Source of the DNA: a virus
Reading direction: 5' to 3' (one strand)
IMG/VR virus record: IMGVR_UViG_3300042566_000522
Coordinates: 1 to 35,566 of that record
Length of the DNA: 35,566 bases
Under the pieces are notes generated by a model that saw only the letters and a list, made by a program, of their open reading frames with translations, made no database searches and was not told the DNA's origin. Shown piece by piece: positions 16,638-35,566 of this stretch. The position numbers and the translations under genes were made by a program. How positions within the stretch are numbered: position 1 is the first letter of the stretch; every line of letters starts with the position of its first letter.

Positions 16638-16666
16638 TTTACATTACATAAAAAACCCGCTAATGT
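16638..16666 (+). promoter_or_regulatory. Promoter of the early operon
   Basis: TTTACA (16638-16643) and TAATGT (16661-16666) are 17 bp apart. The initiation region falls in the inverted repeat at 16665-16698, and the first gene starts at 16723. It overlaps the opposing whiB promoter almost completely. Confidence 0.6.
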
Positions 16667-16669
16667 GAA
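16641..16669 (-). promoter_or_regulatory. Leaderless promoter of whiB
   Basis: On the minus strand TTCACA (16669-16664), a 17-bp spacer and TAATGT (16646-16641) are followed after six bases by the whiB ATG. Its -35 overlaps the -10 of the early promoter and vice versa. Confidence 0.6.
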
Positions 16670-16698
16670 ATCCCACACCGAATAGATGTGGGATTCAC
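16665..16698. promoter_or_regulatory. Inverted repeat, candidate operator or leader hairpin
   Basis: GTGAAATCCCACA and TGTGGGATTCAC form a 12-bp inverted repeat with one bulged A and a 9-base centre. It covers the predicted early transcript start and the -35 of the whiB promoter. It could be a repressor site or a 5' mRNA hairpin. Confidence 0.7.
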
Positions 16699-16722
16699 GC
16701 CAAATGAAAGAGAGGGAAACAC

Positions 16723-23902: not shown

Positions 23903-24086
23903 GCTTGAAAAGGCACTAAAGCTACTAGAGGACAAGAACCTGGTCTGGTCTAAGGATTTCGACACGATTCGGTTAGAATTGTCTCAGCTAATGCGAAAGG
24001 CTGCCGAAGTGCGATACCGTGAACTTGAAGCTGAGCTTGAGAGCCTAGCTAACAGCATTACAAACGAAGGGAAGAACGATGCTTGA
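23895..24086 (+). CDS. Small charged helical protein
   Basis: A 63-residue protein (MDELEKALKLLEDKNLVWSK ... YRELEAELESLANSI), strongly alpha-helical with heptads that suggest a coiled coil. Overlaps the upstream gene by eight and the downstream by eight bases. Function unknown. Confidence 0.58.
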   Translation: MDELEKALKLLEDKNLVWSKDFDTIRLELSQLMRKAAEVRYRELEAELESLANSITNEGKNDA

Positions 24087-24306
24087 AGGATTAGAACCAC
24101 CTAAAAAGACACCAGCTTGCAAAGTAAGAAGCGTGCTTGAGTCTCTGGAACCTAAAGACAGAGAAATACTAAAGAAGGCACTAACTGATGCCGAGTGGCC
24201 TCACTCAACTTTGACACACGAGCTAAACAGACGCGGTATCAGAATTAGCGAGCAACCAGTTCGCACCCACAGAATTGGAAGATGTAGCTGTGTTAGAGAA
24301 TCTTGA
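24079..24306 (+). CDS. Small actinophage helix-turn-helix protein
   Basis: A 75-residue protein of a type I recognise from many actinophages: CKVRSVLESLEPKDREILKK ... HSTLTHELNRRGIRISEQPV, then RTHRIGRCSC. The helices fit a helix-turn-helix with a short Cys-containing tail. It overlaps the metallophosphoesterase by 17 bases. DNA binding is likely; the target is unknown. Confidence 0.7.
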   Translation: MLEGLEPPKKTPACKVRSVLESLEPKDREILKKALTDAEWPHSTLTHELNRRGIRISEQPVRTHRIGRCSCVRES

Positions 24307-25668: not shown

Positions 25669-25773
25669 ATGCTAATGATTTGTCCTAATGGACATGAGTT
25701 AAGAATCATCATTGGACCTAAAAGCGCTTTGCCCCCTGTATGCCTTAGCTGCAACACATCGTTTGGTAAGTAA
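25669..25773 (+). CDS. Mini zinc-ribbon protein
   Basis: A 34-residue protein (MLMICPNGHELRIIIG ... VCLSCNTSFGK) with Cys-x3-His and Cys-x2-Cys, enough for one zinc ribbon. The stop overlaps the methyltransferase start (TAATG), which supports it being translated. Function unknown. Confidence 0.55.
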   Translation: MLMICPNGHELRIIIGPKSALPPVCLSCNTSFGK

Positions 25774-26042
25774 TGCCGAATCTGGGAAATGAAACAACGG
25801 TCTCAGCTACCGATGTATGGCTAACTCCGCCGCACATCCTTGAAGCACTTGGCCCGTTTGACTTAGATCCATGCTCATCTGAAGACAGACCATGGGATAC
25901 AGCCAAAAGTCATTACACGATAAAAGACGATGGCCTAACCCAGCCGTGGTCTGGTCGAGTCTGGTGCAACCCACCTTACGGACCCAAGATGGCCCCGTTT
26001 CTTGAAAAACTTGCCACCCACCCAGGGGGGGGGTGGCTCTAG
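25773..26042 (+). CDS. Dam-family adenine methyltransferase, N-terminal frame
   Basis: Eighty-nine residues of a phage N6-adenine methyltransferase (phage Dam type): VWLTPPHILEALGPFDLDPC (cofactor-side motif) and VWCNPPYGPKMAPFLEKL, with the catalytic NPPY. The frame runs into nine G (26025-26033) and stops at TAG six bases later. The remainder of the domain continues in the -1 frame. A tenth or seventh G, or a -1 ribosomal slip on the G run, would give an intact enzyme of about 160 residues. Confidence 0.85.
   Translation: MPNLGNETTVSATDVWLTPPHILEALGPFDLDPCSSEDRPWDTAKSHYTIKDDGLTQPWSGRVWCNPPYGPKMAPFLEKLATHPGGGWL
26025..26033 (+). repeat. Nine-G homopolymer at the methyltransferase frame break
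   Basis: Nine G in a row exactly where the two methyltransferase halves change frame. Seven or ten G would keep one frame (Pro-Gly-Gly-Val or Pro-Gly-Gly-Gly-Val). It can be a sequencing error, a phase-variable tract or a slippery site. Confidence 0.95.
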
Positions 26043-26257
26043 TGTTCGCTAGAACAGAGACGCGAGCTTTCTTCGATCATGTGTGGGATAAAGCTACTGG
26101 AATTTTGTTTCTAAAAGGCAGACTGAAGTTTCACAAGCCTGATGGAGAATTGGGCGGCACAGCAGGAAGTCCGTCAGTTTTGATTGCTTACGGAGAAGCA
26201 GAAGCAGAAGTGTTGAAAAACTGCAAGCTAAATGGAAAGTACATAAGAATAAACTAA
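26033..26257 (+). CDS. Dam-family methyltransferase, C-terminal frame
   Basis: Seventy-four residues (ALVFARTETRAFFDHVWDKA, TGILFLKGRLKFHKPDGE, TAGSPSVLIAYGEAEAE) that are the usual second half of phage Dam-type enzymes, in the -1 frame relative to the first half. The only starts are a GTG inside the G run or internal codons, with no separate ribosome site beyond the Gs, so independent translation is unlikely. It shows no internal stop, so the break is recent, artefactual or used. Confidence 0.8.
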   Translation: MALVFARTETRAFFDHVWDKATGILFLKGRLKFHKPDGELGGTAGSPSVLIAYGEAEAEVLKNCKLNGKYIRIN

Positions 26258-26496: not shown

Positions 26497-26820
26497 ATGT
26501 ATGCAAAACCTTGCCTAGATTGTGGAAGGCTGACCAAAGGCGCATCCCGCTGCGAGACTCACCAGACAATGATTGAGCAAAGGCTAGAAGCCAAGCGTGC
26601 CGAAAGAAAAAGAGAAACTGGTCAATACGCAGGAGACTATAGAAAGCGTGCCAAGCAAGTCCGAGACTCAGCCCTTTACTGCCACCTATGCAACGAGGGC
26701 ATGAGAATAGATGACCCATTCCAGGCTGATCACTTGATACCAGGAGACCCCAACAGTCCACTAGCCCCAGCTCACAGATCCTGCAACGCACGCCGAGGGA
26801 ACAAGCCGCTAACAAAATAA
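26497..26820 (+). CDS. HNH endonuclease, terminase-associated type
   Basis: A 107-residue protein with a first Cys set (CLDCGRLTKGASRCETH), a basic helical linker (QRLEAKRAERKRETGQYAGD) and an HNH core: YCHLCNEGM (C62, C65), FQADHLIPG (H79), APAHRSCNARRGNK (H93, C96, N97). HNH proteins of this kind usually lie next to terminase genes and assist DNA cutting at packaging. Here a 4-kb block separates it from the small terminase gene. Ribosome site GAGGGGGG. Confidence 0.85.
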   Translation: MYAKPCLDCGRLTKGASRCETHQTMIEQRLEAKRAERKRETGQYAGDYRKRAKQVRDSALYCHLCNEGMRIDDPFQADHLIPGDPNSPLAPAHRSCNARRGNKPLTK

Positions 26821-26839: not shown

Positions 26840-26948
26840 ATTCGGTTCGGATTCGGTTAGACACTCAGCGACAGAGATTCCGAGATTCGGTCAAGATTCG
26901 GTTGAGATTCGGTTCGAGACTCGGTCAATATTCGGTCAGGATTCGGTT
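26840..26948 (+). repeat. 11-bp-phased array of ATTCGGTY
   Basis: Seven exact copies of ATTCGGT begin at 26840, 26851, 26885, 26896, 26907, 26930 and 26941, with a one-base variant (ACTCGGTC) at 26919. Steps are 11 bp (once 12), and the one gap is 34 bp, about three steps. All point the same way. Phasing to about one helical turn suggests cooperative protein binding on one face of the DNA. Confidence 0.95.
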
Positions 26949-26991
26949 GGAAATTCTGCCAGAAAAGGCCCAAAAAAGTGGCGGTTTTTAC

Positions 26992-27011
26992 TTTCGAACA
27001 TTTGTTCGAAA
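26992..27011. promoter_or_regulatory. LexA/SOS box 1
   Basis: CGAAC-ATTT-GTTCG inside a 20-bp palindrome-like block (TTTCGAACATTTGTTCGAAA). It matches the Gram-positive/actinobacterial SOS box GAAC-N4-GTTC perfectly. Confidence 0.8.
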
Positions 27012-27021
27012 CACTTGTTCT
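27008..27021. promoter_or_regulatory. Degenerate LexA-like box 2
   Basis: GAAAC-ACTT-GTTCT, 13 bp from box 1 and partly overlapping its edge. The right half is intact and the left half has two mismatches to CGAAC. Confidence 0.5.
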
Positions 27022-27032
27022 AATGGGCTTAT

Positions 27033-27046
27033 CGAACGCTTGTTCG
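27033..27046. promoter_or_regulatory. LexA/SOS box 3
   Basis: CGAAC-GCTT-GTTCG, flanked by AT and AAG. A perfect match to the SOS-box consensus, 38 bp centre to centre from box 1. Confidence 0.8.
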
Positions 27047-27246
27047 AAGGGTTTGCCAGGATCAAGGGCTTAGCTGCCACACCTAAACACCCCGAAGGCC
27101 GCCCTAACCCCGCCCCCCGAAGATTGGGCGGCACTATTACTAACGGCGGTTAAATAAGGGGTTAGAGCTTTTATAGAGATCTTCACGCGCCGAAGCCCTA
27201 GGCCGTGAACCAGTACAGCGGTTGGACCAGTAGCAAACACCTAACG

Positions 27247-27299
27247 CCGCCGCACTGGCCCCGAAGCCCTGCCAGGATCACCCCCGCCGCACTGGCCCC
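27247..27299 (+). repeat. 16-bp direct repeat pair
   Basis: CCGCCGCACTGGCCCC occurs at 27247-27262 and 27284-27299. In addition TGCCAGGATCA occurs both between the copies and at about 27053. These are non-coding repeats of the control region. Confidence 0.85.
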
Positions 27300-27338
27300 C
27301 GACACCGCGACACGCCGAAAACAAAAAACAATAAAAAT

Positions 27339-27368
27339 TTGACAAAAAACCTAAAAAAGTGCGAAAAT
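27339..27368 (+). promoter_or_regulatory. Promoter of the unknown-gene operon
   Basis: A perfect TTGACA (27339-27344) and GAAAAT (27363-27368) are 18 bp apart, preceded by an A-rich UP-like stretch, 40 bases before the first ATG. A small GGCC-GCAA-GGCC hairpin lies in the leader. Confidence 0.6.
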
Positions 27369-27408
27369 CTACTTATGGCCGCAAGGCCCTTATCGAAGGG
27401 AAAAAGAT

Positions 27409-27645
27409 ATGAACAAGCTACAAGCCCCGAAGGGCTACGAACTACAAACAAGCCGTGATTATTACGATCACTACATTAGCCGCGGGGATGATGGAATTAT
27501 CGGCGGGGTACTTGATCAAAACAAGTGGCTTATTGTCGATTACTTTAGCAACGGTGAGATTAGAGAATTTAGCGCAACAAGTTTGGCCGAAGCCGTCAAG
27601 CAGATAGAGCTGTACGAAAAAACCAAAAACACCGGAGAATTCTAA
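27409..27645 (+). CDS. Unknown protein, first of the accessory operon
   Basis: A 78-residue acidic protein (MNKLQAPKGYELQTSRDYYD ... KQIELYEKTKNTGEF) with strand-rich middle (GIIGGVLDQNKWLIVDYFSN) and a helical end. The ribosome site GAAGGGAAAAAGAT is of the type repeated in this operon. No family recognised. It ends in GEF like the protein at 27813, and both share KWLI(V/D)D, which suggests distant relationship. Confidence 0.7.
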   Translation: MNKLQAPKGYELQTSRDYYDHYISRGDDGIIGGVLDQNKWLIVDYFSNGEIREFSATSLAEAVKQIELYEKTKNTGEF

Positions 27646-27647
27646 AT

Positions 27648-27788
27648 ATGTATAACTTTTTACTAGCTAGTGCCGCGGGTTTGTTTGGCGGCTATTGGAT
27701 CACCGATCAAGGCCTAGGGCTATTTGGGCCGCTGTTTAGTCTGGTAATACTGCTAAGCGCTTTTATTACGCTTACAAAAACAAAATAA
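27648..27788 (+). CDS. Small membrane protein of the accessory operon
   Basis: A 46-residue protein, two bases after the previous stop. Two membrane segments (NFLLASAAGLFGGYW and GLFGPLFSLVILLSAFITL) with a short TDQG turn. Function unknown; its composition is too hydrophobic to be a chance frame. Confidence 0.62.
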   Translation: MYNFLLASAAGLFGGYWITDQGLGLFGPLFSLVILLSAFITLTKTK

Positions 27789-27817
27789 AAAAACACGAAG
27801 GGAAAAAAGAACATGAA
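27784..27817 (+). repeat. Duplicated 34-bp translation leader, copy 1
   Basis: An exact 34-bp match to 28677-28710, covering seven A, CACGAAGGG, six A, GAAC and the ATGAA start. Two genes of the operon thus share an identical ribosome-binding leader, pointing to duplication or selection. Confidence 0.9.
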
Positions 27818-28190
27818 CCAGAATAAAAAAGCAATACCAGAACTACGAAGCTTGTTTATTAGCGGGCGCTTATGGTTCGACAAGTCTGGCGGCAATACTT
27901 ATCACGCGGTTAGCATTAGCGCTAATGGTAAGTGGCTTATCGATATTGGTATGACTTACGGCTACGGCGATCAATACCTACAAACCGCGCTTGATTGGCT
28001 AAAAAAGTTTGGAATCGTTAGCCAGGATGTTAGAAACCTATTTGAACTTAGGGAAACCTTGGATCTGTATACAAGCTACAAGGACACCCTAAAAAAGAAT
28101 CTTTATCAAGATTCTGTAAAGGGCAAAAAAGTAGAAGAATACGCCGATATCTTGATCAAGATCGAAGCCCTAAAAGCGGGTGAATTCTAA
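27813..28190 (+). CDS. Unknown protein of the accessory operon
   Basis: A 125-residue protein (MNQNKKAIPELRSLFISGRL ... IKIEALKAGEF). The N-terminal half is strand-rich (TYHAVSISANGKWLIDIGMT) and the C-terminal half helical (FELRETLDLYTSYKDTLKKN). Strong ribosome site ACGAAGGG. The stop overlaps the next start. No family recognised. Confidence 0.7.
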   Translation: MNQNKKAIPELRSLFISGRLWFDKSGGNTYHAVSISANGKWLIDIGMTYGYGDQYLQTALDWLKKFGIVSQDVRNLFELRETLDLYTSYKDTLKKNLYQDSVKGKKVEEYADILIKIEALKAGEF

Positions 28191-28681
28191 TGATGAAAAC
28201 TTATGATTGGGAATTGTCTAATTCTTGGGAGTGCTATACCCCCGATATGACTTTTTTGAATTGTGAAACTTGTGCCGAAGAATTCGCTAAGGATCAAGGC
28301 CTAGAGATAACTAACGGCGCTCACCGCTTTAGCGATGACCGCGATGGTGTTGGGGTTAGCGAGTGCTACGCTTGCGGCCACGAATTTGACACCCCGCCAA
28401 GTTGCGATGGTTGCGGTACTTATCTAAGGGGCAACCTAACCAGTGAAGGCCGCTTGTATCTTTTAGAAGATCTCACAAGCTGGCCGCTATGGCTAGTTGA
28501 TTATCACTTGGGTACTGAAGGGGTAGAGCTGTATAACCGCACAAGCGAAGCCGAAGCCGCAGAATCTAAGGTGATCATTGACGGCGAATTAGTTGGGTAT
28601 CACACACACCTAGGCGGCTTGTTTGTTTGTATCAAGTGCGGCCACTTATGCGAGTGCGCCGAAGATCAAGAACAAGAATAA
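28190..28681 (+). CDS. Multi-zinc-ribbon protein of the accessory operon
   Basis: A 163-residue acidic protein with four Cys pairs: CETCAEEF, CYACGHEF, CDGCGTYL and CIKCGHLC (plus a further CEC). These suggest two zinc ribbons flanking a middle part (LYLLEDLTSWPLWLVDYHLG). Acidic zinc-ribbon proteins often bind other proteins rather than DNA; an adaptor or antirestriction role would be speculation. Confidence 0.7.
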   Translation: MMKTYDWELSNSWECYTPDMTFLNCETCAEEFAKDQGLEITNGAHRFSDDRDGVGVSECYACGHEFDTPPSCDGCGTYLRGNLTSEGRLYLLEDLTSWPLWLVDYHLGTEGVELYNRTSEAEAAESKVIIDGELVGYHTHLGGLFVCIKCGHLCECAEDQEQE

Positions 28682-28710
28682 AAAAACACGAAGGGAAAAA
28701 AGAACATGAA
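28677..28710 (+). repeat. Duplicated 34-bp translation leader, copy 2
   Basis: Identical to 27784-27817, including the start codon and two following bases, although the proteins diverge after the first two residues. Confidence 0.9.
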
Positions 28711-28951
28711 TAACCAGGACACTCACGAACTACTAGAGATACAAGAACAGCTGGCCGATTTTATTGCCAGAAGGGGCCATGATGAAACCCCGCCAGAAGA
28801 TCACGCAAGGGCCAGACACGGCGGCAATATGTACAGCACCCGAAAACTAGCCGATTTATTTTTAGAGCTAGATAGGGAAGGGTACAGCGCCCTAGGTTTT
28901 AGCCTTGTTGTTGATCTAATAAACCGCGACGCAATCGAAGGGATGAACTAA
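28706..28951 (+). CDS. Unknown acidic helical protein
   Basis: An 81-residue protein (MNNQDTHELLEIQEQLADFI ... LVVDLINRDAIEGMN), mostly helical and acidic with a His/Arg-rich centre (DHARARHGGNMYS). It starts behind the duplicated leader and overlaps the next gene by one base (TAATG). No family recognised. Confidence 0.68.
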   Translation: MNNQDTHELLEIQEQLADFIARRGHDETPPEDHARARHGGNMYSTRKLADLFLELDREGYSALGFSLVVDLINRDAIEGMN

Positions 28952-29178
28952 TGAGTACCGTTAGACAACTAAAAGAATCGCTAAAAGAATATAGGGATGA
29001 CACGCCGCTATTGTGGCAATTCTACGCTAGTGATCACGCCGCAATACCCGAAGAAGATTTTGTGGCGGTGTCTAATTCACTGATGAATAATCAAGTGTTT
29101 TTGGAAGATCTCCACGAATTCTTAAGCGAGTGGATGGATACAGCGCACACACAACTAAAAGAACAAGGGGTGAACTAA
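28951..29178 (+). CDS. Unknown acidic protein
   Basis: A 75-residue protein opening MSTVRQLKESLKEYRDDTPL, resembling the small phage proteins that begin 'TVKELIEAL..FPDDTPV'. It continues LWQFYASDHAAIPEEDF and ends in an acidic helix. TAATG overlaps at both ends. Function unknown. Confidence 0.68.
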   Translation: MSTVRQLKESLKEYRDDTPLLWQFYASDHAAIPEEDFVAVSNSLMNNQVFLEDLHEFLSEWMDTAHTQLKEQGVN

Positions 29179-29405
29179 TGAAGCGGGAATTTTCTAAGCG
29201 CCTTGTCCCTGGTATCTATTACGGCCACAACAAGGGCGGTTGGCTAGTGCTTATTAGATTAGGCGGCCACGGCTTGAACCTAGGCAGTGGCTTTACTGGG
29301 TACTTATCGCTAAGGCCTTGGGCTTGGGCTAAGTACGATTACGCCGATCACTTTAGTTTCAAAACTTTTTGGCGCTGGCTAAAGTACCCCGAAGGCGGCA
29401 ACTAG
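29178..29405 (+). CDS. Unknown basic aromatic protein
   Basis: A 75-residue protein (MKREFSKRLVPGIYYGHNKG ... FWRWLKYPEGGN), rich in Trp, Tyr and Gly, with probable beta structure (GGWLVLIRLGGHGLNLG). The ATG overlaps the upstream stop. Function unknown. Confidence 0.66.
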   Translation: MKREFSKRLVPGIYYGHNKGGWLVLIRLGGHGLNLGSGFTGYLSLRPWAWAKYDYADHFSFKTFWRWLKYPEGGN

Positions 29406-29413
29406 TGGGGGCC

Positions 29414-29605
29414 ATGAAGCGCGAATTAGAGCGCATGGCAGAAACCGTACTTTTTAGCAGCTACGAAGCTATTAGGGAAGAATTTAACAAGGCCGAACAA
29501 CTAGGCGCAACCGCCGAAACTTTTGCCTTGATCGTAGATATGGCGCGCTTGTTCGCGCCTAATTGTAAGTGTGGCGAAAACTATTTTGAAGGGATAGAAA
29601 ACTAA
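29414..29605 (+). CDS. Unknown small helical protein
   Basis: A 63-residue protein (MKRELERMAETVLFSSYEAI ... NCKCGENYFEGIEN). ATG is chosen over an in-frame GTG at 29405 that would overlap the previous stop. Mostly helical, with CKC near the end. Function unknown. Confidence 0.62.
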   Translation: MKRELERMAETVLFSSYEAIREEFNKAEQLGATAETFALIVDMARLFAPNCKCGENYFEGIEN

Positions 29606-29922
29606 TGAGAGATTACAGCGTTAACACCGTCATTGACGGCTATGGCAACCATATCGCACAAGTTAGCTTTAGCACCCCGATAGGCAACACTTACGCGGGT
29701 GATGTTATCTTGTGGCGCGCTATGGCAACAGCTAAGCGCAAACTAAAGGCCGAAGCCGTAGCTAATGGCGAACTAGGAAAACAAAAGTATTTTGTAAGCC
29801 GTAGCTATGAACTAGGTACAGGACAATTAGCTTGGTTCTGGATCACCAGGGGCGCGCCCCTATGGAGTCCCGCACAAATACAAGTAGCAATAGCAAACTT
29901 GAAGGGCGGCGCTAATGCCTAA
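29605..29922 (+). CDS. Unknown protein of the accessory operon
   Basis: A 105-residue basic protein (MRDYSVNTVIDGYGNHIAQV ... QIQVAIANLKGGANA), strand-rich at first (FSTPIGNTYAGDVILW), then a helix (MATAKRKLKAEAVANGE). TAATG overlap upstream and eight-base overlap downstream. No family recognised. Confidence 0.66.
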   Translation: MRDYSVNTVIDGYGNHIAQVSFSTPIGNTYAGDVILWRAMATAKRKLKAEAVANGELGKQKYFVSRSYELGTGQLAWFWITRGAPLWSPAQIQVAIANLKGGANA

Positions 29923-30193
29923 CGCAAACAGAACCCGCGCTTTACTAGCCGCGCAAAAAGTACGGTTAGTAAGTGATCCTAAGCCCACACCCGAAGAACC
30001 AGAACTAACGGCCGAACAGCGTAAAGCAATGTATGCGCCCAAGTCTGCTGTTGCTATGGTTCCCTATCGCCCCGCTATGCCCGTAAGAGTGGCTAAAAGC
30101 AGCTTGAAGGCTACGGGGTGGGGCCTTGGTATCTTCACCGCGATACTAGGCGGCATCCTGGTAGGTGAATCTAAGCAAGGGTTCCGAAGCTAA
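29915..30193 (+). CDS. Membrane-anchored protein, last of the accessory operon
   Basis: A 92-residue protein with a basic N-terminus (MPNANRTRALLAAQKVRLVS), a Pro/Glu-rich middle (DPKPTPEEPELTAEQRKAMY) and one C-terminal membrane helix (TGWGLGIFTAILGGILVG). Likely inserted in the cell membrane with the bulk inside. A strong terminator follows. Function unknown. Confidence 0.66.
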   Translation: MPNANRTRALLAAQKVRLVSDPKPTPEEPELTAEQRKAMYAPKSAVAMVPYRPAMPVRVAKSSLKATGWGLGIFTAILGGILVGESKQGFRS

Positions 30194-30213
30194 CAAGCAA
30201 ATACCGCAACACC

Positions 30214-30247
30214 CTAAAGCCCTAGGCCTAACCGCTTAGGGCTTTAG
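30214..30247 (+). terminator. Terminator of the accessory operon
   Basis: CTAAAGCCCTA and TAGGGCTTTAG form a perfect 11-bp stem with a 12-base loop. The following T tract is weak (CTTTACC), so it may be a partial terminator or processing site. Confidence 0.65.
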
Positions 30248-30816
30248 CTTTACCCCTAGGCCCCCGCCCTAGGCCACACCCGAACAAACAAACTAAAGCA
30301 AACAAACAACTAACTAAGGGCCATAGCCGCCCCCGCTACGCCGTAGCCCTAACGCTAAAGATCAAGCAAACAAGCAGAACCAGAACCAAAACTAAATAAC
30401 CCCTAGGGGCGGTAAGCCCTAGCCCCTACACACACCTAGGCAACTAATAGGCAGATCCGTAGCCACACCGTTAGGCCCCTAAAGCAATGCGAGCGCAACA
30501 GCTAAAGGATCAAACACGCCTAACGAATAGGCCCCAAGGCAGCGCAACACCTAAAGCGCTGTAAGCCTTGTACAAGCCACAATAAAACAAACAAGCAAAA
30601 CACAATAAGCTCTAAAATTACGCCCTTCTATGGCCCCCCTAACCCTGCTAACGGCTACGCTACGCCCTTACCCCCTAGGTACAGTGCGGGAGTGGGGCAA
30701 ATTCTGACAGACTCCGACCAGCCGACACCCCGCCCCGCCACTTGCGTACTTTTTCTAGGTTCAGAGTTTTTCTGGGATAGGCTAGAGACCAAGAAACACA
30801 AGGGAGAAAACCTACG
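30248..30816. other. Non-coding A/C-rich region upstream of terminase
   Basis: About 570 bases with no credible gene. The plus strand is strongly enriched in A and C, with repeated CAAA blocks (30286-30318 and around 30590), several CCTAGG palindromes and CCCCTAGGGG near 30403. No tRNA fold was found. Its place directly before the small terminase gene makes it a candidate pac/cos region or non-coding RNA, not shown by the sequence alone. Confidence 0.6.
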
Positions 30817-31269
30817 ATGCCCAACCCAGCTAAGCCACTTGAGCAGAAACGCCTGCTCGGAAACCCAGGACACCAGACTTTGCCCAAGGAAGGCGAGCTT
30901 GCTGCCATCCCGCCAGCCAAGCGCCAACCCGTAAGACCACTCGGTCTGCACGGCGGTCAGCTCTGGGATGATGTCTTCAAGTACGGTGTGCCTTGGATTG
31001 GTGCAGTAGATGTTCACTTGCTTCAGATGACCTGCGAGCAACTAGATCGCCGTGACACTATTGAGAGCCGATTAGCCGAAGAATACGACTGGCACTTGCT
31101 AAAGCAGCTAAATGACATAGAAGCGCTAATTGCTGGCAACTTAGGTAAACTCGGTTTCTCACCCGAAGCCCGTACCAGACTCGGTTTGGCAGAAGTCAAG
31201 CGAGAAAGCAAGCTAGAAGAACTATTTGCTAGAAGGGCAAAGCGTGAGCTTGAGAAGGGGCCTAAATGA
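30817..31269 (+). CDS. terS: Terminase small subunit, P27-like
   Basis: A 150-residue DNA-recognition subunit of the packaging motor. N-terminus LEQKRLLGNPGHQTLPKEGE and GLHGGQLWDDVFKYGVPWIG, then a helical oligomerisation region (VHLLQMTCEQLDRRDTIESR, ARTRLGLAEVKRESKLEELF) typical of actinophage P27-type small terminases. Ribosome site AAGGGAG. It probably binds the adjacent non-coding region. Confidence 0.82.
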   Translation: MPNPAKPLEQKRLLGNPGHQTLPKEGELAAIPPAKRQPVRPLGLHGGQLWDDVFKYGVPWIGAVDVHLLQMTCEQLDRRDTIESRLAEEYDWHLLKQLNDIEALIAGNLGKLGFSPEARTRLGLAEVKRESKLEELFARRAKRELEKGPK

Positions 31270-31499
31270 GCTACGCAAGAATGGGTGGCGATTCAGGTGT
31301 TTATGTGTTTGAAACTACTGGTGGTTTGAAATGTTGCTACTGCTCTTTGTTTCTTGACTCACAGCTTTTTGATACAGCTCGTGAGATGCTCAGACATCTT
31401 GACGAACACAGGCTTCATGGGGACTTAGTTCCTGATTACACATACAGAGAAATAAAAGAAGACAACCCTGACCTAGACAAAAAGATTGAAAATGACTAA
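31266..31499 (+). CDS. Small actinophage zinc-finger protein between terminase genes
   Basis: A 77-residue protein of a family I recognise as common in actinophages (YARMGGDSGVYVFETTGGLK, CCYCSLF, then MLRHLDEHRLHGDLVP). CxxC and two His fit a zinc finger. ATGA overlap with the small terminase and eight-base overlap with the large terminase. Function unknown. Confidence 0.75.
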   Translation: MSYARMGGDSGVYVFETTGGLKCCYCSLFLDSQLFDTAREMLRHLDEHRLHGDLVPDYTYREIKEDNPDLDKKIEND

Positions 31500-33015
31500 A
31501 AGCTGGCCCCCTGCTTGGCTGACCCCTGTTGCCGAGGAGTTCATTCGGTCAGGCGAGGGCGAAGATGTTATTGACTTCGCTGAGGCATTTGGCATTATTA
31601 CCAAAGACTCAATCGCTGGTAAGGCAGGTACGCCTATGGACCTACGCGACTGGCAGGCTGAACTACTCCGTCACTTGTTCGCCCACGATGACAAAGGCTT
31701 GAAGAACAGAGTCAGTCTTGTAGGGATGCCAAGAAAGAACGGCAAGTCGAGCCTCATGTCGGTTGTCGCTGCCTACGGTCTTGTTGGTTCTGGCATCCGA
31801 GGCGCTGAGGTCTACTCTTGTGCTGCTGACAAGGATCAGGCTCGGTTGGTGTTTGCCGATACCAAGAAGCTGATTGAGGCGAGCGAGCTGTCGGAGATGT
31901 GCAAGCTCTACCGAGATGCCATAGAAGTTCCAGAGACAGGTTCGGTTTACCGCGTGCTGTCAGCCGAGGCTTACTCAAAAGAGGGTCTTAGTCCAACAAT
32001 GGTCATCTTCGATGAGCTGCATGCACAGCCCAATAGAGAGCTGTTCGATGTTATGGCTCTTGCTCAGGGTGCGCGAGGAAACCTAGCAACCCTTATTGCA
32101 ATCACAACTGCTGGTGTGAAGTCAGACAGCTCAGGCCAAGACTCAATCGCCTACTCTCTCTACCAGTACGGGCAAAAGGTTGCAAGGGGCGAAGTAGATG
32201 ACCCGACCTTCTTTATGGCTTGGTGGGAAGCTCCGCAAGAGTACGACCACACTGATCCGATGACTTGGCGCTTGGCTAACCCTGGCTTTGATGACATTTG
32301 TGCGGAAAGCGACTTTCAGTCAGCCGTGCTTAGGACACCTGAGTCAGAGTTCAGGCGTAAGCGAATAAATAACTGGGTTTCCAGCAAGGATGCTTGGTTG
32401 CCTGCTGGGTCATGGGATCAGTTGGCTGTTCCTAGCGATTACACCGAGGATGACGAGTTCATCATTGGCTTTGACGGTTCTTGGTCCAATGACTCCACTG
32501 CTGTCATCGGGGTTCGGTTGCCAAGGCACGAAGACGATAAGCCACATCTGTTTATGATTCAGACTTGGGAGAAGCAACCCGAAGATGACGCAAGCTGGCG
32601 AGTGCCTACCCTAGAAGTTGAGGATGTCATCATTCAGTTCTGTACCAAGTACAGGAATGTCCGAGAGGTAGTCTTTGACCCGCCACGCTGGACTAAGACA
32701 ATGGTGATGCTTGAGGAGATGGGCTTTCCAGTTGTAGGCTTCCCTACTTTCTCGGCTGCCCGTATTGTTCCAGCCTGTCAAATCTTTTATGACGCTGTGA
32801 CAGAGCAAACCATCACGCATGACGGCAATCCTGTCCTTACAAGGCATTTGGACAACGCTGTAGTGAAATCTGACAGATTCGGTAGAAGAATTACAAAAGA
32901 ATCAGCAGGAAGCCCAAGAAAGATTGACGCGGCGATTGCTGCCGTCATTGCCCTAGACAGGTGCATAAACAGCACTAAACTAGAAGATGAACTATCTCCG
33001 CAATTCTTCATTTAG
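31492..33015 (+). CDS. terL: Terminase large subunit
   Basis: A 507-residue packaging ATPase-nuclease. Walker A is GMPRKNGKSS (residues 78-87), Walker B MVIFDELHAQ (D174, E175) and the coupling motif is near LIAITTAG. The nuclease domain has GFDGSWSNDSTAVIG (first Asp), VVFDPPRWTK and the final DAAIAAVIALDR, matching RNase H-like terminases of HK97/phi-type siphoviruses. ATG at 31492 is preferred to TTG at 31486. Overlaps the upstream gene by eight bases. Confidence 0.95.
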   Translation: MTKSWPPAWLTPVAEEFIRSGEGEDVIDFAEAFGIITKDSIAGKAGTPMDLRDWQAELLRHLFAHDDKGLKNRVSLVGMPRKNGKSSLMSVVAAYGLVGSGIRGAEVYSCAADKDQARLVFADTKKLIEASELSEMCKLYRDAIEVPETGSVYRVLSAEAYSKEGLSPTMVIFDELHAQPNRELFDVMALAQGARGNLATLIAITTAGVKSDSSGQDSIAYSLYQYGQKVARGEVDDPTFFMAWWEAPQEYDHTDPMTWRLANPGFDDICAESDFQSAVLRTPESEFRRKRINNWVSSKDAWLPAGSWDQLAVPSDYTEDDEFIIGFDGSWSNDSTAVIGVRLPRHEDDKPHLFMIQTWEKQPEDDASWRVPTLEVEDVIIQFCTKYRNVREVVFDPPRWTKTMVMLEEMGFPVVGFPTFSAARIVPACQIFYDAVTEQTITHDGNPVLTRHLDNAVVKSDRFGRRITKESAGSPRKIDAAIAAVIALDRCINSTKLEDELSPQFFI

Positions 33016-33022
33016 GTTGGTA

Positions 33023-33160
33023 ATGACAGCGACAATTCTCCAAGCACTAGGGATCTTGACGATTGCCGCAGGTGCGGGTTTACTCTTTCCACCAGCAGGT
33101 GTGATTCTTTTAGGTATCGGCTTACTTGCTTTTGGCATAGCCGTTGAGCGAGGTAAGTAA
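33023..33160 (+). CDS. Small membrane protein between terminase and portal
   Basis: A 45-residue protein with two hydrophobic segments (LQALGILTIAAGAGLLF and AGVILLGIGLLAFGIAV) and a Pro-Pro turn. Small membrane proteins of this kind lie at the same position in many actinophages. The stop overlaps the portal start (TAATG). Function unknown. Confidence 0.68.
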   Translation: MTATILQALGILTIAAGAGLLFPPAGVILLGIGLLAFGIAVERGK

Positions 33161-34494
33161 TGCTAGGCAATTTCTTTGAGAGCCGAAATGTAAGCTTTCA
33201 GTCAATCTGGGGTTCAGGTGAAGTCTGGCAGCTAGACACATCTGCTGGTCAGATGATGAACACCCAGAAGTCGCTAGAAATCTCAGCTTTCTTCTCAGCA
33301 GTCAGCCTTATCTCTGACACCATCTCAACTTTGCCGATTGAGGCGCATGTCCACTCAGGACTGAACCGAATCCCGCTTGACCCAACTCCAGCTTGGGTAT
33401 CACAGCCAGATGTAGACATGACTCGTCAGGGACACTACCAGCAGGTCCTAATCTCTCTCTTGATGCACGGCAACTCTTACACACGCATCTTCCGTGACCG
33501 TTCAGGTGAAGTTGTAAACCTTATGGCGCTCGACCCTGAGAAGATGAAGGTCACTCGGTCAGCAGTTGGTCGCAAGCTTTACGAATACGCAGATGAGAAG
33601 AAAGTTCTTACTGCGAACGAGGTCATTCACATCACAGACCTAGTTCTTCCAGGTAAGCTCATTGGAACTAGCCGAGTAGAGAAGCTTCGTGAGGCACTCG
33701 GACTAAACCTTGCCTTACAGCAGTACGCTGCAAGATTCTTCGGTGCTGGCGCATCAGCTCAGGGCGTTATTGAGTTCCCTGGCAACCTGACTCCAGAGCA
33801 AGCAAAGAACTTGGCTGATGGCTTTGACTCACGCCACAAGAACAACTCACGCAGAGCGCACCGCACTGGTGTTCTTTCAGGTGGAGCTAAGTTTGTCTCA
33901 ACTCAGGTAGATCCAGAGAAGTCGCAGGCACTTGACTCACGCAAGTTCGGTGTAGAGGAAATCGCTCGTATCTTCAACATCCCGCTACACATGCTCGGTG
34001 TTCCTGACACAGCAAGCTACGCTTCGGTTGAGCAGAACGCAATTCAGTTCGTGACTCACACACTTCGCCCATACGCAGAAAAGATTGAGTGGGCTTATTC
34101 ACGCCTGCTTCCACCAAACGCCTACATCAAGTTCAACTTCGGTGCTTTGCTTCGTGGAGACCTAGAGTCACGCTTCAACGCTTACTCGATTGCATCTCAG
34201 GCTGGCTTCCTGTCTATAAATGACATTCACGCCCTAGAAGACATGCAGCCTGTTGAGAACGGTGAAATCTACCGTGTACCACTAGCGAACATAAACCTAC
34301 CTGACGCAAAGCTTGTTGGCGAGCAGATGATGTACGACATCGTTTCTAAGCTTGTACAAGCTGGATACCAGCCAGATGACATCTTGTCTACATTCGGTTT
34401 GCCAGCTATTCCTCACTCTGGAGTACCTAGCGTTCAGTTGCAGCCTGTTGCTCAGATTGACCCTAACGCTCCAACTACTGTTTACGAGGAGTAG
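33160..34494 (+). CDS. Portal protein, HK97 family
   Basis: A 444-residue portal subunit forming the dodecameric DNA channel. Typical segments: ISAFFSAVSLISDTISTLPI near the start, LLMHGNSYTRIFRD, VIHITDLVLPGKLIGTSRVE, FGAGASAQGVIEFPG, FGVEEIARIFNIPLHMLGVP and LRPYAEKIEWAYSRLL, all in the order of HK97 gp3-like portals. Length is normal. It follows the terminase and heads the virion gene block that continues across the contig ends. Confidence 0.95.
   Translation: MLGNFFESRNVSFQSIWGSGEVWQLDTSAGQMMNTQKSLEISAFFSAVSLISDTISTLPIEAHVHSGLNRIPLDPTPAWVSQPDVDMTRQGHYQQVLISLLMHGNSYTRIFRDRSGEVVNLMALDPEKMKVTRSAVGRKLYEYADEKKVLTANEVIHITDLVLPGKLIGTSRVEKLREALGLNLALQQYAARFFGAGASAQGVIEFPGNLTPEQAKNLADGFDSRHKNNSRRAHRTGVLSGGAKFVSTQVDPEKSQALDSRKFGVEEIARIFNIPLHMLGVPDTASYASVEQNAIQFVTHTLRPYAEKIEWAYSRLLPPNAYIKFNFGALLRGDLESRFNAYSIASQAGFLSINDIHALEDMQPVENGEIYRVPLANINLPDAKLVGEQMMYDIVSKLVQAGYQPDDILSTFGLPAIPHSGVPSVQLQPVAQIDPNAPTTVYEE

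Positions 34495-35101: not shown

Positions 35102-35566
<465 letters not shown>

Follow-up and report, generated by a model that had tools for sequence, protein, structure and literature searches.

A strand-polar word scattered through the genes of an uncultivated phage and ending in a periodic array: a possible domain-boundary signal

To our knowledge, polar signals that extend over a whole genome are few, namely Chi, KOPS, uptake sequences and stoperators, and each of them has revealed a basic machine. Chi sites are short, polar, over-represented, independent of the reading frame and individually dispensable, and the conserved inverted repeats of phage phiC31 are palindromic operator sites that lie between genes. 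Stoperators, in turn, are oriented with transcription and number 20–30 sites per genome (PMC6550527, PMC9283540). Here, we describe a short word, ATTCGGT, in a phage genome sequence of 35,566 nucleotides (hereafter the window, meaning the whole stretch that was analysed), where it is both scattered through genes and gathered in an array. We give slightly less than an even chance to the reading that this is a lineage-specific, genome-wide polar signal, neither stoperator nor Chi, whose one-way sites inside genes end in a periodic array at the boundary of a transcription (or DNA-processing) domain, and which evolution can intensify or extend across the genome.

The first and last 136 bases of the window agree at 133 positions, so the map is circular, with a length of about 35.43 kb; this overlap (1–136 and 35431–35566) falls inside an ORF with collagen-like repeats. 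The large terminase shares 54% identity with its counterpart in Pontimonas phage phiPsal1, the gene order of the two phages is broadly alike, and the terminases of the relatives found in IMG/VR range from 99% down to 59% identity to that of the window. phiPsal1 was reported to be clearly lytic, with signs of integration absent (PMC6106888), and no integrase was recognised in the window phage, which encodes RecE-like and Mre11-like exonucleases. In the virion, the physical left end of the genome is placed at 30739/30740, immediately upstream of terS, because many independent contigs of relatives begin there, at CACTTGCGTAC, and because one contig, G001, runs from the equivalent sequence all the way round and back to it. 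This common start, CACTTGCG (window position 30739), is preceded by a C-rich stretch and is a probable cos site. Two local differences from relatives were also observed: a small additional Cys/His ORF between terS and terL (31266–31499), missing from G001, as if inserted, and two adjacent ORFs (25773 and 26033, spanning 25773–26257) that by eye resemble two halves of one N6-adenine methyltransferase and that, among the relatives compared, are present in G001 only.

The array occupies positions 26840–26947 of the + strand, directly downstream of an HNH endonuclease gene (26497–26820, +; PHROG HNH match) with its stop at 26820, in non-coding DNA with no conserved ORF over it. As a prior sequence-only reading had described, it consists of seven exact ATTCGGT units, starting at 26840, 26851, 26885, 26896, 26907, 26930 and 26941, and one variant, ACTCGGT, at 26919, all on the + strand. 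The steps from unit to unit are 11, 34, 11, 11, 12, 11 and 11 bp, so that the 11-bp spacing given in that reading holds for most steps and fails at one 34-bp gap and one 12-bp step. Even against the elevated density of dispersed copies, seven within 108 bp are not expected by chance (Poisson P ~3e-11). The array is found at the same place, directly after the HNH gene, in 22 distinct relatives, the window itself counted among them, and is retained in these although its spacings differ; the neighbouring HNH proteins are 57–99% identical. Across the relatives the spacings group near multiples of about 11 bp (11 dominant, also 10–12, 21–23 and 33–34), and this lattice persists where units have been lost. 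Spacings of 13, 15, 24 and 25 bp occur as well, so the helical phasing is approximate, not strict. The array thus does not come from a chance tandem expansion without conservation, a possibility raised beforehand and ruled out when the relatives were checked, by its recurrence at one locus with spacings near multiples of 11. Arrays in seven members of other phage groups (L101, L123, L159, L197, G225, G226 and G232) were set aside as unrelated, because their context differs and the genome-wide polar excess is absent where it was tested.

Two earlier suggestions for the array did not survive. A cos or pac function is not supported, the natural genome end being next to the terminase at 30739, about 3.8 kb away. 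Replication-origin iterons bound by the phage initiator (19923) would explain direct repeats with helical spacing in non-coding DNA, but their likelihood is remote: in G001 and in a second array-bearing relative, G010, this replication protein is replaced by one of only 34% identity while the array is unchanged, neither a DnaA box near the array nor an AT-rich stretch over it was found, and the polar enrichment inside genes would be left unexplained. The same replacement speaks against protein 19923 as the binder of the array. A GC skew extremum is absent at the array, and it has no Rfam family match.

The same word is scattered genome-wide, as had been stated: ATTCGGT occurs 41 times in the window, compared with 2.15 +/- 1.5 expected from dinucleotide shuffles. 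Causes at the DNA level were separated from those at the protein level by synonymous-codon shuffling of all + strand genes. In + strand coding DNA, ATTCGGT is found 28 times against 2.7 expected (about 10-fold; reverse complement 4 against 2.0), TTCGGT 55 times against 9.4 (about 6-fold; reverse 6 against 8.0), and GATTCGGT 17 times against 0.9, with its reverse complement at or near background. The excess is therefore limited to the + strand, that of transcription, and the word occupies all three reading frames within genes; a coding or protein-level cause is ruled out by the shuffles and the use of the three frames. Evasion of a type III restriction system through site orientation is disfavoured, the reverse word being at expectation and not depleted. 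Pooling twelve relatives gives a core TTCGGT with G at -2, A or G at -1, and T or C next. Of 60 dispersed sites, 56 lie within coding sequence. With the core TTCGGTY, sites run on the + strand over 961–25210, with ATTCGGT examples at 961, 1349, 1755, 2066, 4461, 4584, 4827, 4905, 5153, 6561, 7175, 7392, 9023, 9420, 9850, 11036, 11313, 11587, 14562, 17196, 17302, 21967, 22388, 23967 and 25204, and again in terL, the portal gene and their neighbours (31543, 32877 and 34392; 31543–34398, +). No mention of this word or of its pattern was found in the literature.

A polar excess of the same type recurs in all array-bearing relatives, in which the word ranks first or near the top among polar words. 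Single dispersed positions show little if any more conservation than permuted words do, i.e., density is kept while positions turn over. That turnover, together with a partial 34-bp duplication within the array, is what an artefact of codon usage, composition or tandem duplication without function could produce; the probability of such an artefact, which the statistics refute, is close to negligible, given an excess that is 10-fold over codon shuffles, specific to one strand and present in three frames, its repetition in array-bearing relatives, and an array kept in 22 of them with differing spacings. The data support the array and the scattered copies being one system, and, judged from the sequences, a sequence-specific factor likely recognises the sites, because this conserved system has periodic, same-orientation spacing. 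Such a factor is also what stands of the proposal that same-face phasing implies an oligomerising DNA-binding protein, the phasing itself being approximate.

Some further word counts and local patterns accompany these results. Depletion of near-cognate words was dropped as evidence, several words being depleted on both strands. The WhiB gene, on the minus strand, contains one recurrent site, which is inherited and sits on the + strand of the genome and so antisense to WhiB; a comparison of sense with antisense placement in this gene came down to that single site. Between the divergent WhiB and RecE genes (16650–16700) there is a conserved inverted repeat whose loop holds ACCGAAT, the complement of the motif, replaced in relatives by ACCGAG or ACCGAC. 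Moreover, in two relatives, G010 and G004, the word TGGTGGT shows a strong strand bias within coding DNA (in G010, 33 against 4.2 expected, reverse 0), which may reflect a tail repeat protein or a different signal.

Regarding the extent of the signal, forward sites span from terL to the HNH gene and end at the array. The 4.6 kb that follow (26948–31542), with variable small early-type ORFs, the genome end and terS, hold no + strand site, and the array-to-terL segments of the 22 relatives, 83 kb in all, contain 2 forward sites; the density found elsewhere would predict about 150. This segment is A- and C-rich, and composition shuffles predict about 4.5 forward sites, so the absence is to be read as the end of enrichment only: that the enrichment stops at the array is sure, while avoidance beyond it is not significant given the composition (2 against 4.5). 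A flip of polarity to the right of the array, as at an origin, was also rejected, since the reverse excess (69 against 45) disappears under a third-order model (63.5). The intragenic copies are more than the secondary sites of the array first proposed, being strongly enriched, strand-polar and bounded by it. From the array to the genome end (27409–30193) the small ORFs, many of them acidic, form a cassette that varies greatly, with 161 proteins in 61 clusters over the 22 relatives; these are candidates for host-takeover genes, and recent acquisition of the small genes between array and terL could contribute to their lack of sites.

Immediately beyond the array lie two LexA/SOS-type boxes, TCGAACATTTGTTCGA (26994–27009) and TCGAACGCTTGTTCGA (27032–27047), both exact matches to TCGAACN4GTTCGA, with a degenerate third box observed between them (26994–27047). 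Each relative has one or two boxes of this type after the array and almost none elsewhere in the next 3 kb; in all 22 relatives a box is found 33–49 bp beyond the end of the array, most commonly at 46 bp. The actinobacterial LexA consensus reported for Streptomyces is tCGAAC-N4-GNNCGa (PMC9380542), and the boxes of the window's clade fit this Streptomyces-derived consensus as predicted LexA sites. This suggests that the early genes may be SOS-responsive, in a phage without a recognised integrase.

The position of the array, 3.8 kb from one physical end, with variable early-type genes beyond it and sites only on its other side, would also suit a boundary for genome entry, in which the right 4 kb enters first and the array and the following sites stall or ratchet the rest, by analogy with the first-step transfer of T5. 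We regard this as highly unlikely, given that some more distant phages bear arrays but have no sites over most of the remaining genome. These cousins, G005, G222 and G223, have 38–43% G+C. Only their replication operon shows the excess, at 3.3 to 5.6 times, and their structural genes lack it (0 to 1.5 times); in the window's clade, by contrast, it affects the replication operon and the structural genes alike (about 3–10 times). In the three cousins, counts of TTYGGTT per fifth of the replication operon climb toward the array (1, 2, 3, 3, 18; 1, 2, 3, 2, 10; and 0, 3, 3, 4, 10), and TTTGGT climbs likewise, consistent with TTYGGTT being their word. In addition, a strong intrinsic terminator hairpin directly follows each of their arrays. 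Relatives without the array lack the word, and it is unremarkable in seven relatives at 59–63% terminase identity and in phiPsal1. Three states are represented among these phages, i.e., word absent, word in the replication operon only, and word throughout the genome, which offers a chance to trace how the signal spread.

Because polarity follows transcription, an array marks the boundary, site density rises toward it in the cousins, and terminators or LexA-type boxes lie behind it, we tentatively favour stoperator-like polar sites that would halt rightward transcription and insulate an early operon of LexA type. The array and the dispersed copies would form one set of polar binding sites with the core [A/G]TTCGGT[T/C], and the factor that recognises them would act, as mycobacteriophage stoperators do, on RNA polymerase travelling rightward. 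Each dispersed site, in the replication operon and in the window's clade also in the structural genes, might slightly block or slow elongation, and the 11-bp array closing the co-oriented gene block would be a strong stop, so that on a circular genome read-through would not reach the next operon, in which LexA-type boxes precede small early-type genes. In favour of this stop model, the sites are oriented with transcription and only that strand is enriched for them, terminators come after the arrays of the cousins, and LexA-type boxes come only after those of the window's clade. Against it, a repressor shared only by the phages with the motif was not found, phiPsal1 is reported as lytic, the great majority of dispersed sites are genic with a core of 6–8 bp, and the WhiB site is antisense. 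We infer that a binding factor exists, that it stops elongation and that the early operon is under LexA control.

The strict sense polarity, the location of the array at the 3′ end of a long transcript right before terminators, and the growth of site density toward that 3′ end in the cousins would also fit a signal in nascent RNA, with AUUCGGUY in phage mRNA bound by an RNA-binding protein and the array serving as a multi-site element for antitermination, RNA stabilisation or 3′-end protection. We consider this somewhat unlikely, for the lattice of about 11 bp, conserved across lost units, fits the helical phasing of DNA, the recurrent + strand site is antisense to WhiB, and no Rfam family was matched.

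Another alternative is a phage-specific polar signal for DNA ends or replication, either Chi-like sites that an enzyme coming in at the right end of the genome would reach from their 3′ side, or sites marking a leftward fork or a loading site near the array. A short asymmetric word in all frames that turns over freely with its density maintained, the geometry relative to the right end, the two phage exonucleases and the cousin gradient toward the array all agree with it. Genomes of Microbacteriaceae were sampled because a related terminase occurs in a metagenome-assembled genome of this family and phiPsal1 comes from it; no enrichment of the word was seen in 200 genomes of the Microbacteriaceae and 297 of the class, nor did codon shuffles on six actinobacterial genomes show an excess comparable to that of the phage. 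A host Chi recognised by RecBCD or AddAB was accordingly rejected for the genomes sampled, none of about 500 actinobacterial genomes being enriched. This lack of Chi-like enrichment, the terminal 4 kb without sites, where Chi would help most, the missing polarity flip and GC skew extremum, and the structural genes of the cousins without sites make the alternative unlikely.

Returning to the stoperator-like barrier, the search for its factor gave few candidates. No gene family tracks the word among the phages compared (present with the motif, missing without it), and no repressor-like gene doing so was recognised from PHROG and Pfam matches and the relatives compared. The dispersed repressor suggested by the sequence-only reading is among the best surviving explanations for one conserved system of array and copies, but lacks a repressor gene that tracks the motif. 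HTH protein 22202, one of the binders then proposed, was not found in the array-bearing G001 and G010, and WhiB is present in phages with and without the word. A small HTH-like protein ending in Cys (24079–24306, +), with no Pfam or PHROG family, is the one HTH-like protein that every array-bearing relative covering the region retains; it is also present in the word-free G007, its presumed recognition helix varies, and it may be regarded as a weak candidate. The binder may come from the host, or it may be a phage protein that evolves fast.

Many uncultivated relatives of a Pontimonas phage carry this combination of a polar word with a sharp boundary element, and its predictions are direct, i.e., an orientation-dependent stop and a factor binding the array, for which a fragment of about 110 bp suffices. 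Compared with known systems, it is closest to the stoperators and L5-type repressor of cluster A mycobacteriophages, which likewise have tens of asymmetric sites oriented with transcription (PMC9283540, PMC6550527) and, as a further likeness, a cluster of sites preceding a region at the early promoter that is strongly expressed. Stoperators are 13–14 bp long and mostly intergenic or at promoters, while here the core has 6–8 bp, nearly all sites are genic, a dense 11-bp array is present and no repressor is recognisable. The core TTCGGT, even with its preferred flanking bases at -2, -1 and +6, falls short of a 13–14 bp consensus, and because of this site length, the genic location and the repressor not having been found, we do not file the word as a stoperator. 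It shares with Chi (RecBCD/AddAB) its shortness, polarity, over-representation, frame independence and individual dispensability, and differs in not being enriched in host-type chromosomes, in having a domain bounded by the array, and in its absence near the right end and from the structural genes of the cousins. ParR/parC and plasmid iteron arrays likewise place direct repeats of about 11 bp in non-coding DNA, whereas this word is also scattered in genes, its phage has no recognised par genes, and the initiator has been swapped without change to the array. phiC31, an actinophage with a related terminase, also has dispersed sites, but this word is asymmetric and intragenic. The type III restriction-site bias of T7 type similarly involves an asymmetric word nearly all in one orientation, but it arises by loss of one orientation, while in this genome the forward word exceeds expectation and its reverse stays at background. 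Taken together, the word and its array look, in this family of viruses of aquatic actinobacteria, like a virus-specific "stop" signal that fits no documented system.
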